Positions 105 to 46,980 of a DNA stretch of 64,000 nt are shown piece after piece. Numbering within the stretch: position 1 is the stretch's first letter; every line of letters begins with the position of its first letter. The stretch comes from an uncultured Spartobacteria bacterium (lineage in GTDB: Bacteria; Verrucomicrobiota; Verrucomicrobiia; Chthoniobacterales; Chthoniobacteraceae). Where the stretch lies: positions 1-64,000 of the forward strand of contig CAIZLD010000017.1 in the NCBI GenBank assembly GCA_903933715.1. Direction: 5' to 3'. A program made the position numbers and the translations under genes. The notes beneath the pieces are model-generated. The model saw only the letters and a list, made by a program, of their open reading frames with translations. It was not told the DNA's origin and searched no databases.

Positions 105-366
105 GCTGAATCGACATTCAAAAGCCGCCGCAACCCGCAGGGTTGCCAGCGAATAGCCGGTGGTTGAGCGTTAGCGACACCACCGGTCAATGCAAAACCG
201 CGCCTCACCCCTAAAGGGGTGGCAGAAAACTAGGCGATGGCTCTGCCACCCCTTTGGGGGTGAATTCTTCCAACACCTCATCCGGTGGTGTCGCTAACGC
301 TCAACCACCGGCTATGGGCTTCAAACCCTTTGGGTTTGGCTCGATCTGAATGTCGATTCAGCCTAA
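105..366. repeat. Nested palindromic intergenic repeat, copy 1 (arms + 33-bp perfect inverted repeats 154-186/282-314 + core)
   Basis: TAGCCGGTGGTTGAGCGTTAGCGACACCACCGG at 154-186 is exactly reverse-complementary to 282-314; the core holds GGGGTGGCAGA...TCTGCCACCCC; arms carry small hairpins (CAACCC-gca-GGGTTG; AAACCC-tttGGGTTT). Second copy at 46719-46980. Confidence 0.9.
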
Positions 367-964: not shown

Positions 965-3601
965 CTAAGCTCCCAGAGTTTGCTCCATTTTTTGGAGTTG
1001 CGCCAGCTTTTCGCTCCAATCAATTTCGCGTTTGCGATGTTCATCGACCACGGCGGCGGGGGCGTTCTGGACAAAATTGGAGTTGGAAAGCTTTTTGCGG
1101 ACGGTGACCAGCTCGGCCTCCACTTTGGCAATCTCTTTCTTGATCCGTTCCAGTTCCGCAGAAGCATCGACCAATCCTTCGAGCGGCAGATACAGCTCGC
1201 CCAGGGGGGTCAACACCCCGGGTTCGCCTCGCGCGGGCTCGTAATCGGGTTGCAGCCCGACGGATTCCGCATTGATGAGCCGTGCAAACGTTTCGCTTTC
1301 CTGGGCGACCCATTCCGGCTGCGGTTTGAGATGGAAACGGGCTTTCTTGTTGGAAGGAATCCGCACTTCGGCCCGCAGATTGCGCGCCAGTCGCACCGCC
1401 TGGTAAACCGAGGCCGCCCGTTCGCTGCCAGAGGCAAGCCGCTGAGGGGCGATCCCGGCCAGCAAGTCGGCGTTGGGCCATGCGGCATACATCAGGTGTT
1501 CCCTCCCGTGTTGAGGCGCTTGGAACCCGAAAGTGGCCCAGAGTTCCGCCGCTAAATGAGGCATAAACGGTTGCAACAAACGGAGAAAATGCGAGAGCAC
1601 AAAATCCATCACCGCGAGCGCCGAGGCTTTGGCCGACGGGTCTTCGCTGAAGATTTCGGTTTTGGCGGCTTCCACGTAATTATCGCAATACTCGCTCCAG
1701 AAGAAGTCATAGAGCGACTGCGCGACTTCGTTGAAGCGGTATTCGTCGTAAGCGGCATTGACGTTGACAATCAACGCCTGGAGTTTGCTTAAAATATCAA
1801 GCGAGTAGCTCGAGAGCGGCAATCCCTCGAGATTGACCTCCGGCGCGCTCGGCCCGTGCATCTGGCGGAACCGGGCGGCGTTCCACAGTTTGTTGGCAAA
1901 GTTGCGGCCTTCCTCGACTTGTTTTTCGTCGAAACGGATGTCCTGACCTTGCGGCGCGATGCGCAGCAGGCCAAACCGGATACCGTCCGCCCCGTATTTG
2001 GCGATCAAATCGAGCGGATCGGGCGAGTTGCCCAGCGACTTGGACATTTTGCGGCCCGACATGTCGCGGATCAACCCGGTGAAAAAGACGTTGGCAAACG
2101 GCTCCTGGCCGGTGAACTCGTACCCCGCCATGATCATCCGGGCGACCCAGAAGAAAATGATATCCGGGCCGGTCACCAGGTCGGCAGTTGGGTAAAACTT
2201 GGCGCGCGTTTCGGCGTCCATCGTGGCAAACGGCCAGAGCCAGGAGGAGAACCAGGTGTCAAGCACGTCTTCCTCCTGGGTCCAGTTTTCCGGATCGGCC
2301 GGAGCCGTGGTGTCCACATGCACACAGGCGGGGTTATCGTTGCGGTACCAGACCGGGATGCGGTGCCCCCACCAAAGCTGGCGGCTGATGCACCAATCCT
2401 GAATGTTCTGCATCCAATGGTCGTAGACGTGCGCCCAACGTTCCGGGCGGAATTTCACGATCCCGCTGTTGACGGCTTCGAGCGATTTGTCCACCTGCGG
2501 GTATTTGAGGAACCACTGTTCGCTTAAGCGCGGCTCGATCGGCACATCGGCCCGCTCGGAATAGCCGACGTTGTTCTGATACGGCTCTTCTCTGACCATC
2601 AACCCCATCTCGCGAAGCTTCTCGACCGCCGCTTTGCGTGCGGCAAACCGGTCCATCCCCGCAAATTCCGGCCCCGCCAGCTCGTTCAGCGTGGCGTTGG
2701 GGTGGAAAACGTCGATCACTTCGAGCCCGTGGCGCTGGCCGATCTCAAAGTCGGCCTTGTCGTGGGCTGGCGTCACCTTGAGCACGCCGGTTCCAAAAGT
2801 CGGGTCAATATGTTCGTCGCCGATGATCGGGATGGCCGCCTTCGGGAACGGGCGCCAGACGTGGCTCCCGATCAAATGCTTGTAACGTTCGTCGTGGGGG
2901 TGAACCGCAACGGCGGTATCGCCCATCAGCGTCTCGGGCCTCGTGGTGGCGATCTCCAGGAATTGCCCCGGATGTTCCACCAGCTCGTACTTCATGTGGT
3001 AGAGCGAGCCGTTTTGCGGCTTCATGATCACCTCTTCGTCCGAAAGCGCCGTGAGCGAAACCGGGCACCAGTTGACCATCCGTTTGCCGCGGTAAATAAG
3101 CCCCTTGTTGTAGAGCTTGACGAAAACCTCCTGCACCTGCCGGGAATAATCGGCATCCATCGTGAACCGTTCGCGAGCCCAATCGCAGGTGCATCCGAGC
3201 TTTTTGAGCTGCGCGATGATGATCCCGCCATGCTTCTCTTTCCATTCCAGAACACGCTCCAGGAACGCCTCGCGACCGAGATCCCGGCGCGTTTTGCCTT
3301 CCTCCTTGCGCAGTTTACGTTCCACCACCGTCTGGGTGGCGATCCCGGCGTGGTCAGTCCCCGGCAGCCAGAGCACTTCGCGACCCAGCATCCTGGCGCG
3401 GCGCGCCAGGATATCCTGGATCGTGTTGTTGAGCACATGGCCCAGCGTCAACATCCCGGTGACGTTGGGCGGCGGGATGACAATACTGTAGGCAGGCTTG
3501 GGCGAGGCAGGATCGGCCGCAAAGCAACGGTCTTCCAGCCAACGCGCGTACCATTTTTCTTCAACTGCTTGAGGTTCGTAAGCTTTCGAAATTTCTGACA
3601 T
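965..3601 (-). CDS. valS: Valyl-tRNA synthetase
   Basis: PPPNVTGMLTLGHVLNN (HIGH region), GRKMSKSLGNSPDPL (KMSKS), C-terminal coiled coil; 878 aa. Confidence 0.97.
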   Translation of the reverse strand: MSEISKAYEPQAVEEKWYARWLEDRCFAADPASPKPAYSIVIPPPNVTGMLTLGHVLNNTIQDILARRARMLGREVLWLPGTDHAGIATQTVVERKLRKEEGKTRRDLGREAFLERVLEWKEKHGGIIIAQLKKLGCTCDWARERFTMDADYSRQVQEVFVKLYNKGLIYRGKRMVNWCPVSLTALSDEEVIMKPQNGSLYHMKYELVEHPGQFLEIATTRPETLMGDTAVAVHPHDERYKHLIGSHVWRPFPKAAIPIIGDEHIDPTFGTGVLKVTPAHDKADFEIGQRHGLEVIDVFHPNATLNELAGPEFAGMDRFAARKAAVEKLREMGLMVREEPYQNNVGYSERADVPIEPRLSEQWFLKYPQVDKSLEAVNSGIVKFRPERWAHVYDHWMQNIQDWCISRQLWWGHRIPVWYRNDNPACVHVDTTAPADPENWTQEEDVLDTWFSSWLWPFATMDAETRAKFYPTADLVTGPDIIFFWVARMIMAGYEFTGQEPFANVFFTGLIRDMSGRKMSKSLGNSPDPLDLIAKYGADGIRFGLLRIAPQGQDIRFDEKQVEEGRNFANKLWNAARFRQMHGPSAPEVNLEGLPLSSYSLDILSKLQALIVNVNAAYDEYRFNEVAQSLYDFFWSEYCDNYVEAAKTEIFSEDPSAKASALAVMDFVLSHFLRLLQPFMPHLAAELWATFGFQAPQHGREHLMYAAWPNADLLAGIAPQRLASGSERAASVYQAVRLARNLRAEVRIPSNKKARFHLKPQPEWVAQESETFARLINAESVGLQPDYEPARGEPGVLTPLGELYLPLEGLVDASAELERIKKEIAKVEAELVTVRKKLSNSNFVQNAPAAVVDEHRKREIDWSEKLAQLQKMEQTLGA

Positions 3602-17820: not shown

Positions 17821-17840
17821 AACAGGGAAAGGAAATATTC

Positions 17841-17919
17841 TCTCGCAAAGACGCAAAGGCGCAAAGGGGGGAGGAATCCACCCTTTGTCTTTTCTTTGCG
17901 TCTTTGCGTCTTTGCGAGA
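17841..17919. repeat. Intergenic inverted repeat, 'CGCAAAGACGCAAAGG' family, copy 1
   Basis: TCTCGCAAAGACGCAAAGGCGCAAAG (17841-17866) vs reverse complement of 17894-17919, 25/26 identical. Confidence 0.9.
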
Positions 17920-17945
17920 AACATAAAAATAGAAGGCGTGGGCGT

Positions 17946-20701: not shown

Positions 20702-20728
20702 TCTGTAAAAAGGGAGGCCGGAAAAATT

Positions 20729-20800
20729 TCACGCAAAGACGCAAAGGCGCAAAGGGGCGGAATGCCTTGCCTTTCTTTGCGTCTTTGCGTCTTTGCGTGA
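20729..20800. repeat. Intergenic inverted repeat, 'CGCAAAGACGCAAAGG' family, copy 2
   Basis: TCACGCAAAGACGCAAAGGCGCAAAG (20729-20754) vs reverse complement of 20775-20800, 25/26 identical; same family as 17841-17919. Confidence 0.9.
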
Positions 20801-20825
20801 GTCATATTTCAAAGCGTGTTTCGGG

Positions 20826-24130: not shown

Positions 24131-24300
24131 CGTGTTCACGAAATCCAAACAGAGGAGTCCGCAGATTGCGCAGATTACCGCAGATTTTCAAAAACTGTTT
24201 CAAGGGACATCAATGGAGTCTCACCGCTCATTCCTATTGAAATAATCTGCGTTCATCTGCGCAATCTGCGGATAAAACCTCTGGATTCCTGGCTTCTTAA
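24131..24300. repeat. Intergenic palindromic repeat, 'ATCTGCGCAATCTGCGGA' family, copy 1, with outer GGATTCCTGGCTTCT module
   Basis: TCCGCAGATTGCGCAGATT... (24158 on) inverted at 24241-24272 (...ATCTGCGCAATCTGCGGA). Confidence 0.85.
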
Positions 24301-30372: not shown

Positions 30373-30429
30373 GCATTTTACGGGGCTGATCATTCCGATT
30401 ACTCCCATAAATCCAAGAGGGGGAGTTAT

Positions 30430-30502
30430 CCTCAGATTGCGCAGATGAACGCAGATTTATACTGAAATAATCGGCGAAAATCTGCGCAATCTGCGGATTC
30501 TC
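30430..30502. repeat. Palindromic repeat, 'CAGATTGCGCAGAT' family, copy 2
   Basis: CTCAGATTGCGCAGATGAACGCAGATTTA...AATCTGCGCAATCTGCGGATTCTC; same family as 24131-24300. Confidence 0.85.
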
Positions 30503-32117: not shown

Positions 32118-32256
32118 GAAAAAAGAGAGGCGAAATCCAAGGATTTGAAGATGACTTGGATTTCCGGCTCGGGCAAGGCCCAAGCGACACCCTTTTACCT
32201 CGTTTTTTCGTAACCCCGGATGCGGTCGAGGCCAGTTCCATGCCCCATCCCCCCCG

Positions 32257-32322
32257 GGGAACCCGCCCGAAGAACCCACCGAAATATAGACGTTCCCAAG
32301 TGCAACTTGGGAACGAGGTTAA
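32257..32322. repeat. 66-bp direct repeat containing the palindrome CGTTCCCAAGTGCAACTTGGGAACG, copy 1
   Basis: Identical 66 bp at 32443-32508. Confidence 0.92.
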
Positions 32323-32335
32323 TCCGCACCAGCCC

Positions 32336-32364
32336 TCGTTCCCAAGTTGCACTTGGGAACGCAT
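32336..32364. repeat. Isolated palindrome CGTTCCCAAGTTGCACTTGGGAACG, opposite orientation of the same family
   Basis: Inverted version of the palindromic part of the 66-bp repeat, between the two copies. Confidence 0.8.
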
Positions 32365-32442
32365 CTTCCGGCGAAGTTGCACTTCGCAAGCCGTGTCAGC
32401 AGAATCAAGCACATTGGAAGCACAACAGCCGATCATCCCCCA

Positions 32443-32508
32443 GGGAACCCGCCCGAAGAACCCACCGAAATATAGACGTTCCCAAGTGCAACTTGGGAAC
32501 GAGGTTAA
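32443..32508. repeat. 66-bp direct repeat containing the palindrome CGTTCCCAAGTGCAACTTGGGAACG, copy 2
   Basis: GGGAACCCGCCCGAAGAACCCACCGAAATATAGACGTTCCCAAGTGCAACTTGGGAACGAGGTTAA identical to copy 1. Confidence 0.92.
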
Positions 32509-45884: not shown

Positions 45885-46712
45885 ATGATCAAGTTTCGCT
45901 CCTTTCTGGCACTCCTCGCCTTTGCAATTCTCCCGATCGGCGCGGCGGCGCAATATTCCGAAATGACGCCGACCCCGGCTCCGGTGGCTGCCCCGAATGC
46001 CCATAACGGGCCGCGCATTTCCTACAGTGCGGCGAATGTAGACGGGCCTTACATTGCGCTGACCTTCGACGACGGCCCGAGCAAAACCACCACCCCGCGG
46101 CTGCTCGATCTCCTGGCGAAACGGGGCGTCAAGGTCACTTTTTTCGTCCAAGGGGTCAACGCTCACGAATTCCCCGAGATCATTAAGCGGGAAGTGGCCG
46201 AAGGGCATGAGATCGGCAACCACTCCTGGGATCATCCCAATTTGGCGAAGATGTCCGAATCCGCCGTCCGCAGCCAGCTTGAGCGGACTCAGGATGTGAT
46301 TTTCCAGATCACCGGCCAAAAACCCAAGGTCTTCCGCCCCCCTTTTGGCTCGTTTAGTGAGAAACAGCGGAAATGGGCGAACGAACAGTTTGGGTTCAAA
46401 ATCATATTGTGGGAAGTGGACCCTCTTGATTGGAAGCGGCCCGGTTCTGCGGTCGTCGCCCAACGAATCCTGACCAACACCAAGGCGGGGTACATCGTTC
46501 TGGCCCACGACATCCATGCCCCGACGGTTGATGCCATGGCCGAAACCGTCGACGGTCTGCTGGCCAAAGGGTTCAAATTCGTCACCGTGAGCGAACTCAT
46601 TGCGATGGATCACCCGAAGCCGAAACCGGCAACTCCGGCCCCGTCCACGACCGGAAGCTCTTCCGTAACGCCTGCCGCATCCGCCGCGCCGACGGCAGCC
46701 GCAGTCCCTTAA
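45885..46712 (+). CDS. Secreted polysaccharide deacetylase (NodB-like)
   Basis: Signal peptide; YIALTFDDGPSKTTTPRLLDLL; EIGNHSWDHPNLAKM; FRPPFGSF. Confidence 0.93.
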   Translation: MIKFRSFLALLAFAILPIGAAAQYSEMTPTPAPVAAPNAHNGPRISYSAANVDGPYIALTFDDGPSKTTTPRLLDLLAKRGVKVTFFVQGVNAHEFPEIIKREVAEGHEIGNHSWDHPNLAKMSESAVRSQLERTQDVIFQITGQKPKVFRPPFGSFSEKQRKWANEQFGFKIILWEVDPLDWKRPGSAVVAQRILTNTKAGYIVLAHDIHAPTVDAMAETVDGLLAKGFKFVTVSELIAMDHPKPKPATPAPSTTGSSSVTPAASAAPTAAAVP

Positions 46713-46718
46713 CCCGGG

Positions 46719-46980
46719 GTTAGGCTGAATCGACATTCAGATCGAGCCAAACCCAAAGGGTTTGAAGCCCATAGCCGGTGGTTGAGCGAAGCGACACCAC
46801 CGGTCAATGCAAAACCGCGCCTCACCCCAAAGGGGTGGCAGAAAACGAGGCGACGGCTCTGCCACCCCGTTGGGGTGAATTCTTTCAAACACCTCATCCG
46901 GTGGTGTCGCTAACGCTCAACCACCGGCTATTCGCTGGCAACCCTCCGGGTTGCGGCGGGTTTTGAATATCGACAGCCCG
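46719..46980. repeat. Nested palindromic intergenic repeat, copy 2
   Basis: Inverted repeats 46772-46803 / 46898-46930; same family as 105-366, arms exchanged relative to the core. Confidence 0.9.

Follow-up and report, generated by a model that had tools for sequence, protein, structure and literature searches.

A dispersed REPIN-like palindrome in a Spartobacteria genome with recurrent inversion at two nested levels

The window, a stretch of 64,000 nt comprising bases 1-64000 of contig C17 in a 77-contig, 2.80-Mb draft genome, contains two copies of a dispersed palindromic element. Comparison of copies at different loci indicates that segments of this element have been inverted recurrently at two nested levels. 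We interpret the element as a non-autonomous REPIN/BIME-like repeat that derives from a Y1 transposase unit and whose long-stem spacers have been repeatedly inverted by template switching, and assign this reading a probability of roughly 0.6.

Anatomy of the element

Read from the outside, a TA is followed by the outer end RGCTGAATCGACATTCA and then by arm A or arm B, each of which holds a small AACCC..GGGTT hairpin. Inside the arms lie a REP hairpin (TAGCCGGTGGTTGAGCG..AGCGACACCACCGG) and a 17-nt inner stretch, followed by the level-1 stem (TCACCCCAAAGGGGTGGCAGA) and a loop of 15-17 nt, after which the same parts run outward in mirror image. Its REP hairpins are paired head-to-head within TA-bounded outer arms, and the two window copies are made up as follows.

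105-363, plus strand: copy 1, whole element (259 nt), B-core-A, loop orientation 'f'
105-120, plus strand: outer end, GCTGAATCGACATTCA, a small hairpin
121-153, plus strand: arm B, with the CAACCCGCAGGGTTG hairpin
154-186, plus strand: left REP hairpin TAGCCGGTGGTTGAGCGTTAGCGACACCACCGG, the left arm of the level-2 stem
205-226, plus strand: left arm of the level-1 (inner) stem
227-241, no strand: innermost loop, flipped independently between copies
242-263, minus strand: right arm of the level-1 stem
282-314, minus strand: right REP hairpin (inverted)
315-346, minus strand: arm A, with the AAACCCAAAGGGTTT hairpin
347-363, minus strand: outer end
46723-46978, plus strand: copy 2, whole element, A-core-B, loop orientation 'f'
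46723-46771, plus strand: outer end and arm A
46772-46803, plus strand: left REP hairpin
46822-46842, plus strand: left arm of the level-1 stem
46843-46857, no strand: innermost loop
46858-46878, minus strand: right arm of the level-1 stem
46898-46930, minus strand: right REP hairpin
46931-46978, minus strand: arm B and decayed outer end

Copy 1 is flanked by TA at 103-104 and 364-365, while copy 2 has a TA at 46721-46722 on its left and a decayed right end. The first-pass annotation had placed the copies at 105-366 and 46719-46980; both proved real, and their exact ends were refined to the positions listed. Its description of two cores (154-314 and 46772-46930) in the same plus orientation between swapped arms was confirmed, with arm A to the right of the core in copy 1 and to its left in copy 2, and arm B the opposite way. 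As inverted repeats the arms were 96% identical between 111-186 and 46898-46973 and 99% identical between 298-369 and 46717-46788. The 33-bp inverted repeat 154-186/282-314 is indeed perfect in copy 1, and through it the two inverted REPs form one hairpin. A second, inner inversion, that of the loop at 227-241, was absent from the annotation.

The ends of the element are sharp, with T and A on either side of the element, each position being matched in 40-46 of the 49 copies with clear ends, and an end consensus of YTA|R...Y|TAR in the same set. A single strand of the element was predicted to fold into one long nested hairpin, the energy as DNA being -103.6 kcal/mol compared to -39.9 for shuffles (z = -16.7), and the RNA fold gave z = -13.1. 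No Rfam family matched at copy 1 or copy 2. The REP foot is ATAG (TTAG in relatives), which has the TAG of the GTAG tag and lacks its G.

Genomic distribution and gene context

A genome-wide search with CCGGTGGTTGAGCG at up to 1 mismatch returned 86+90 matches compared to 1+3 for the reversed control, and the core motif GGGGTGAATTCTTTC at up to 2 mismatches returned 48+44 compared to 2+0. The suggestion of a mobile-type dispersed repeat was borne out by a family of about 80 copies in the 2.8-Mb draft. Eighty-one core-bearing places were gathered, of which a few were uncertain or truncated at a contig end, and 60 complete copies, all spanned within contigs, were typed by BLAST and alignment. 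About 25-30 contig ends fall in or beside copies, where orientation is less certain. An exact-flank search for two copies sharing one insertion site found none. Two copies, L057 (C56:26-286) and L111 (C24:12578-12839), have the same 25-nt left flank and different right flanks, and their arms differ (A-A and A-B, respectively), a pattern that may reflect recombination between copies, duplication or a misjoin.

The copies are extragenic and lie near gene 3' ends, the enrichment that the first-pass annotation had proposed checking: with gene ends called roughly by a simple codon-usage gene finder, 68 of the 97 flanks that were scored proved to be 3' ends (P=9e-5). In twenty cases the gene stops precisely at the junction and its TAA or TAG stop consists of TA and the first base of the element, which fits insertion at the TA of the stop codon. 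One example is the minus-strand ORF 363-1019 beside copy 1, whose TAG stop (CTA at 363-365) was created by the element/TA junction. At copy 2 the gene finder preferred an antisense ORF, and the plus-strand ORF 45885-46712 encodes a polysaccharide deacetylase. Arm A had been noted beside the stop codon at both window copies (363 and 46712); this was a coincidence of two, as across the whole typed set a gene 3' end had arm A within 20 nt in 14 cases and arm B in 21 (P=0.31). Core side was equally unlinked to the gene end (18 and 17). A regulatory role, which had been raised, is unsupported in the form of a phase-variation-like switch, since neither arm identity nor core side shows a link to the gene end and no locus in the draft displayed both orientations. 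Functions commonly suggested for REPs, for instance protection of transcript 3' ends, may apply to the element.

Other repeats were also observed. Several copies are directly adjoined, at the TA junction and on a single side, by another repeat that reads TAGTGGGCTGTCACGCGTTAAGCGATGAGTAAAGACA or its reverse complement; it was seen at 60-104 of the window and adjoins the elements at L002, L114 and L148. Three further palindromic families occur in the window: CGTTCCCAAGTGCAACTTGGGAACG at 32251-32508, CGCAAAGACGCAAAGGCGCAAAG at 17834-17933 with 20722-20806, and AATCTGCGTTCATCTGCGCAATCTGCGGAT at 24155-24275 with 30426-30500.

Two nested inversions

The proposal, made from the two window copies, that the core is inverted relative to the arms was upheld in the family at large, where a single fixed orientation did not occur. 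The arm configuration relative to the core was AB in 36 of the 60 typed copies, BA in 21 and AA in three, and no B-B copies were found among the sixty. The innermost loop reads AAAACGAGGCGATGG.. in 35 of these copies and is reverse-complemented in the other 25. Each of the four combinations of arm and loop orientation was common (21, 15, 11 and 10; Fisher P=0.78), and loop inversion is independent of arm/core inversion. Neither orientation ratio was clearly off 1:1 (P=0.06 and 0.25). The spacer is inverted while the arms are retained.

A maximum-likelihood tree of the cores, from which arm bases had been trimmed, required at least 15 changes of arm orientation (label-shuffle mean 17.2) and at least 12 of loop orientation (shuffle mean 19.6, with 14 as the lowest of 200 shuffles), as for a recurrent and reversible flip, on a tree that is weakly supported, with seven firmly supported branches. 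Pairwise evidence therefore carries more weight. After in-silico unflipping, some of the closest copy pairs in the genome stand in opposite states. The arms of L036 (AB) and L002 (BA) are identical (0 differences), with two rare variants common to both, and their cores are 6 bases apart in opposite orientation. L032 (AB, f) and L008 (BA, r) have 5 differences in about 260 bases once both flips are undone. Since these closest copies differ by flips and 5-6 bases, flipping is recurrent and recent, and the inversions are young relative to base changes. Arm and core distances were weakly correlated (Mantel r 0.24 for A-core and 0.03 for B-core), which suggests either that exchange between copies also occurs or that the signal is short.

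Flipping was seen for the 22-bp level-1 and 33-bp level-2 stems, whereas the loop of the 7-8-bp REP stem was reversed in 0 of 118 distinct REP contexts; flips depend on long, near-perfect arms. The REP variants (GTTA, GGA and GAA) travel with the core side and not with the arm, which places the level-2 exchange towards the outer half of the stem. Left/right linkage of the REP variants was not detected (P=0.19).

A sister species in the same genus (G003), with elements about 72% identical to those described here, provided a comparison. The two REPs of its element differ, one being long with a GC loop and the other CCCCC/GGGGG, so that the level-2 stem is mismatched, and in the copies that were read through no level-2 swap was seen. 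Its level-1 stem is perfect, and the loops AAACCCGCTCTC (L150) and GAGAGCGGGTTT (L158) are exact reverse complements.

A transposase-carrying relative

Three Y1_Tnp (PF01797) genes are present in this genome. One of them, at L118 (C67; 1409-1854, minus strand), lies between two inverted half-elements in the order arm-REP-inner-stem1, gene, stem1-inner-REP-arm, with REPs at 1332-1363 (+) and 1925-1956 (-) and the stop codon of the gene a few bases from the level-1 stem. The same layout was found at L297 in another species of the genus (G002), with REPs at 135-166 and 721-752, and in both genomes the transposase gene is bracketed by the same REPs. The gene occupies the position of the copy 1 loop (227-241). 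The transposase scored 83.7 bits against PF01797 (cut-off 23) and 71.8 bits against the IS200/IS605 model NF033573 (cut-off 55), and its 21.5 bits against the RAYT model NF047646 were below the cut-off of 80. TA-bounded outer ends are absent from the gene-carrying unit.

The position of the gene, at the loop between inverted half-elements, leads us to read the element as a putative gene-less, REPIN-like derivative of a Y1/HUH transposase unit. We infer that the copies were transposed by a transposase of the L118 type. The element works like the REPIN of a REPtron and departs from strict membership in the GTAG tag and in the RAYT model score. The other two Y1 transposase genes, L119 (C36:37247-37588) and L120 (C24:15013-15354), are without the REP, although weak, short inverted REP-like matches lie about 100 nt beyond both ends of L120. 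A shortened REP-bracketed version was observed in Planctomycetaceae bacterium D1_Bin_8 (L264), where the loop encodes the C-terminus of a Y1 transposase, its protein tail reading FREELKELLILAEIEFEERYLD* from the DNA. This locus is probably a deletion intermediate between the gene-carrying unit and the gene-less repeat.

A scan of one genome per species found the REP in at least 116 stretches, often as inverted pairs 125-175 nt apart, and the matches listed were mostly from Planctomycetes, Verrucomicrobia, Lentisphaerae, Hydrogenedentota and Sumerlaeota. A high REP density in Opitutus terrae, REPs of Rhodopirellula baltica and REP dimers nested within longer palindromes have been described (PMC3733652).

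Proposed mechanism and alternatives

In the proposed scheme the element would derive from a gene-carrying unit with a small IS200-like (Y1/HUH) transposase gene in its loop, and would insert at TA sites, mostly just 3' of genes. Owing to its nested near-perfect inverted repeats, whatever a long stem encloses is inverted again and again, REP-core-REP flipping relative to arms A and B at level 2 and the 15-17-nt loop flipping at level 1. The inversion would arise when hairpin-forming DNA is miscopied at replication by a template switch. In yeast, template switching between inverted-repeat arms inverts the spacer recurrently and only where the arms exceed 9 bp (PMC8604942), loop inversions have been described in rRNA and microRNA hairpins (PMC8794818), and hairpin-linked small inversions of 4-50 bp in plastid DNA have been reviewed (PMC12371153). 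Long stems that flip beside 7-8-bp stems that do not are consistent with spacer inversion by template switching, which fits both levels, the dependence on stem length and the contrast with the sister species. Homogenisation of the stem arms would be expected from such a process, but none was found when left-right likeness was compared within and between copies (level 1 P=0.64, REP P=0.49). For this reason, together with the weak arm-core correlation, confidence in template switching stays moderate.

Recombination across the inverted repeat, the explanation offered in the first-pass annotation, is possible for the outer flip, where an intramolecular homologous crossover could act. For the inner flip it meets a steric difficulty, as a 15-17-bp spacer between 22-bp arms is probably too short for a level-1 crossover given the stiffness of DNA.

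Exchange between loci is an unlikely but plausible source of the flips. Near-self-complementary copies could pair either way, and gene conversion or crossover would then swap in a core of opposite orientation. The near decoupling of arm and core distances gives the copies a mosaic look that such exchange would produce, and the three A-A copies and the shared left flank of L111 and L057 with their differing right flanks point the same way. The identical arms and near-identical opposite cores of L036 and L002 need no second copy, however, while a 15-17-nt loop that flips alone would demand very short tracts, and the typed copies include no B-B form.

Two further alternatives, both improbable, involve the transposase. 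A Y1/HUH enzyme might cut the REPs at their TAG feet while the DNA is single-stranded and rejoin REP-core-REP in the other strand. The level-2 boundaries coincide with the TAG feet, the REP variants go with the core and not with the arms, a transposase gene is bracketed by these very REPs, and TnpA-REP enzymes are known to cut beside REPs (PMC8266576). Such cutting is at odds with the inner loop, which flips without a REP at its borders, and with the sister species, which has both REPs, albeit mismatched, and in which no level-2 flip was seen. Inversion might instead be a part of multiplication, with every copying event passing through a hairpin intermediate on which the HUH transposase acts, and the inner segments re-emerging in random orientation at both levels. 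If this doubtful account were true, the element would be a bacterial 'flip/flop' like viral hairpin telomeres, and the near-even ratios would record rounds of replication.

Amplification of a few master copies in different configurations, with no recurrent flipping, is very improbable and already largely refuted: the core tree does group loop orientation in part (12 changes compared to 19.6 when shuffled), but arm orientation is nearly random on it (15 compared to 17.2), the least divergent pairs genome-wide have opposite configurations and loop flips occur in the sister species too. Arbitrary orientation of the core by short-read assembly across a near-palindrome is still less credible, for despite the 25-30 contig ends in or beside copies, usual reads are long compared with the 22- and 33-bp stems, flipped loops bear their own private substitutions and the same loop flips in the independent genome of the sister species. 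A dedicated invertase with phase variation, in which core orientation would control the neighbouring gene, can practically be dismissed, as the preference for gene 3' ends is set against the missing link of gene ends to arm or core side and against inversion at two nested levels whose borders differ, which is not what one recombination site would give.

Relation to known systems

TA-target MITEs such as Correia/NEMIS and RUP are short, present in many copies and carry terminal inverted repeats bounded by TA. The element is likewise short and multicopy with TA at both ends, but a parent of the IS630/Tc1-mariner type was rejected, as the only DDE_3 gene in the genome has no matching ends nearby. 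In the flip/flop of the AAV ITR, the inside of a nested palindrome occurs in two orientations; the likeness would extend to this architecture, and hairpin-primed terminal resolution is not in evidence here.

In layout the element resembles REPINs and BIMEs, which are REP doublets mobilised by RAYT, also called TnpA-REP (PMC3116915, PMC3733652, PMC8266576). Shared features are two REPs inverted around a structured spacer with their tails outward (head-to-head), an extragenic position beside gene 3' ends, a single-strand hairpin and, as in a REPtron, a related transposase gene that lies between copies of these REPs. The element differs in its ATAG/TTAG tag in place of GTAG, in its greater length (about 260 nt), its additional outer arms and its TA ends, in a transposase that scores as IS200/IS605 type and falls below the RAYT cut-off, and in a spacer and core that occur in both orientations. 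The GTAG-15 dimers of Anabaena variabilis also place a REP dimer within a longer palindrome beginning with TA, whereas their sequence differs and inversion polymorphism is not reported for them (PMC3733652).

Template-switch spacer inversion (PMC8604942, PMC8794818) has in common with the flips described here that they are recurrent and reversible, keep the arms and need long arms. In contrast to those cases, the present element is a multicopy bacterial repeat with two nested levels, its spacers measure 15-17 and about 95 nt compared to 2-8, and arm homogenisation was not detected. Chloroplast small inversions (PMC12371153) are similarly small and hairpin-linked, and represent single loci with one level.

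How REP-type repeats spread is still debated, and here a gene-less repeat is built to the same plan as its putative gene-carrying parent, in which the transposase gene takes the loop position. About 60 independent insertions with two nested stems, and short stems as internal controls, constitute a natural experiment on palindromes. They also carry a warning that orientation inside palindromic repeats serves poorly as a phylogenetic character. Repeats of this kind would offer a ready assay for strand-switching in bacterial replication, provided that template switching is the cause. REP doublets and spacer inversion are both already known, and it is the frequency and the nested depth of the inversions that are unusual in this genome.
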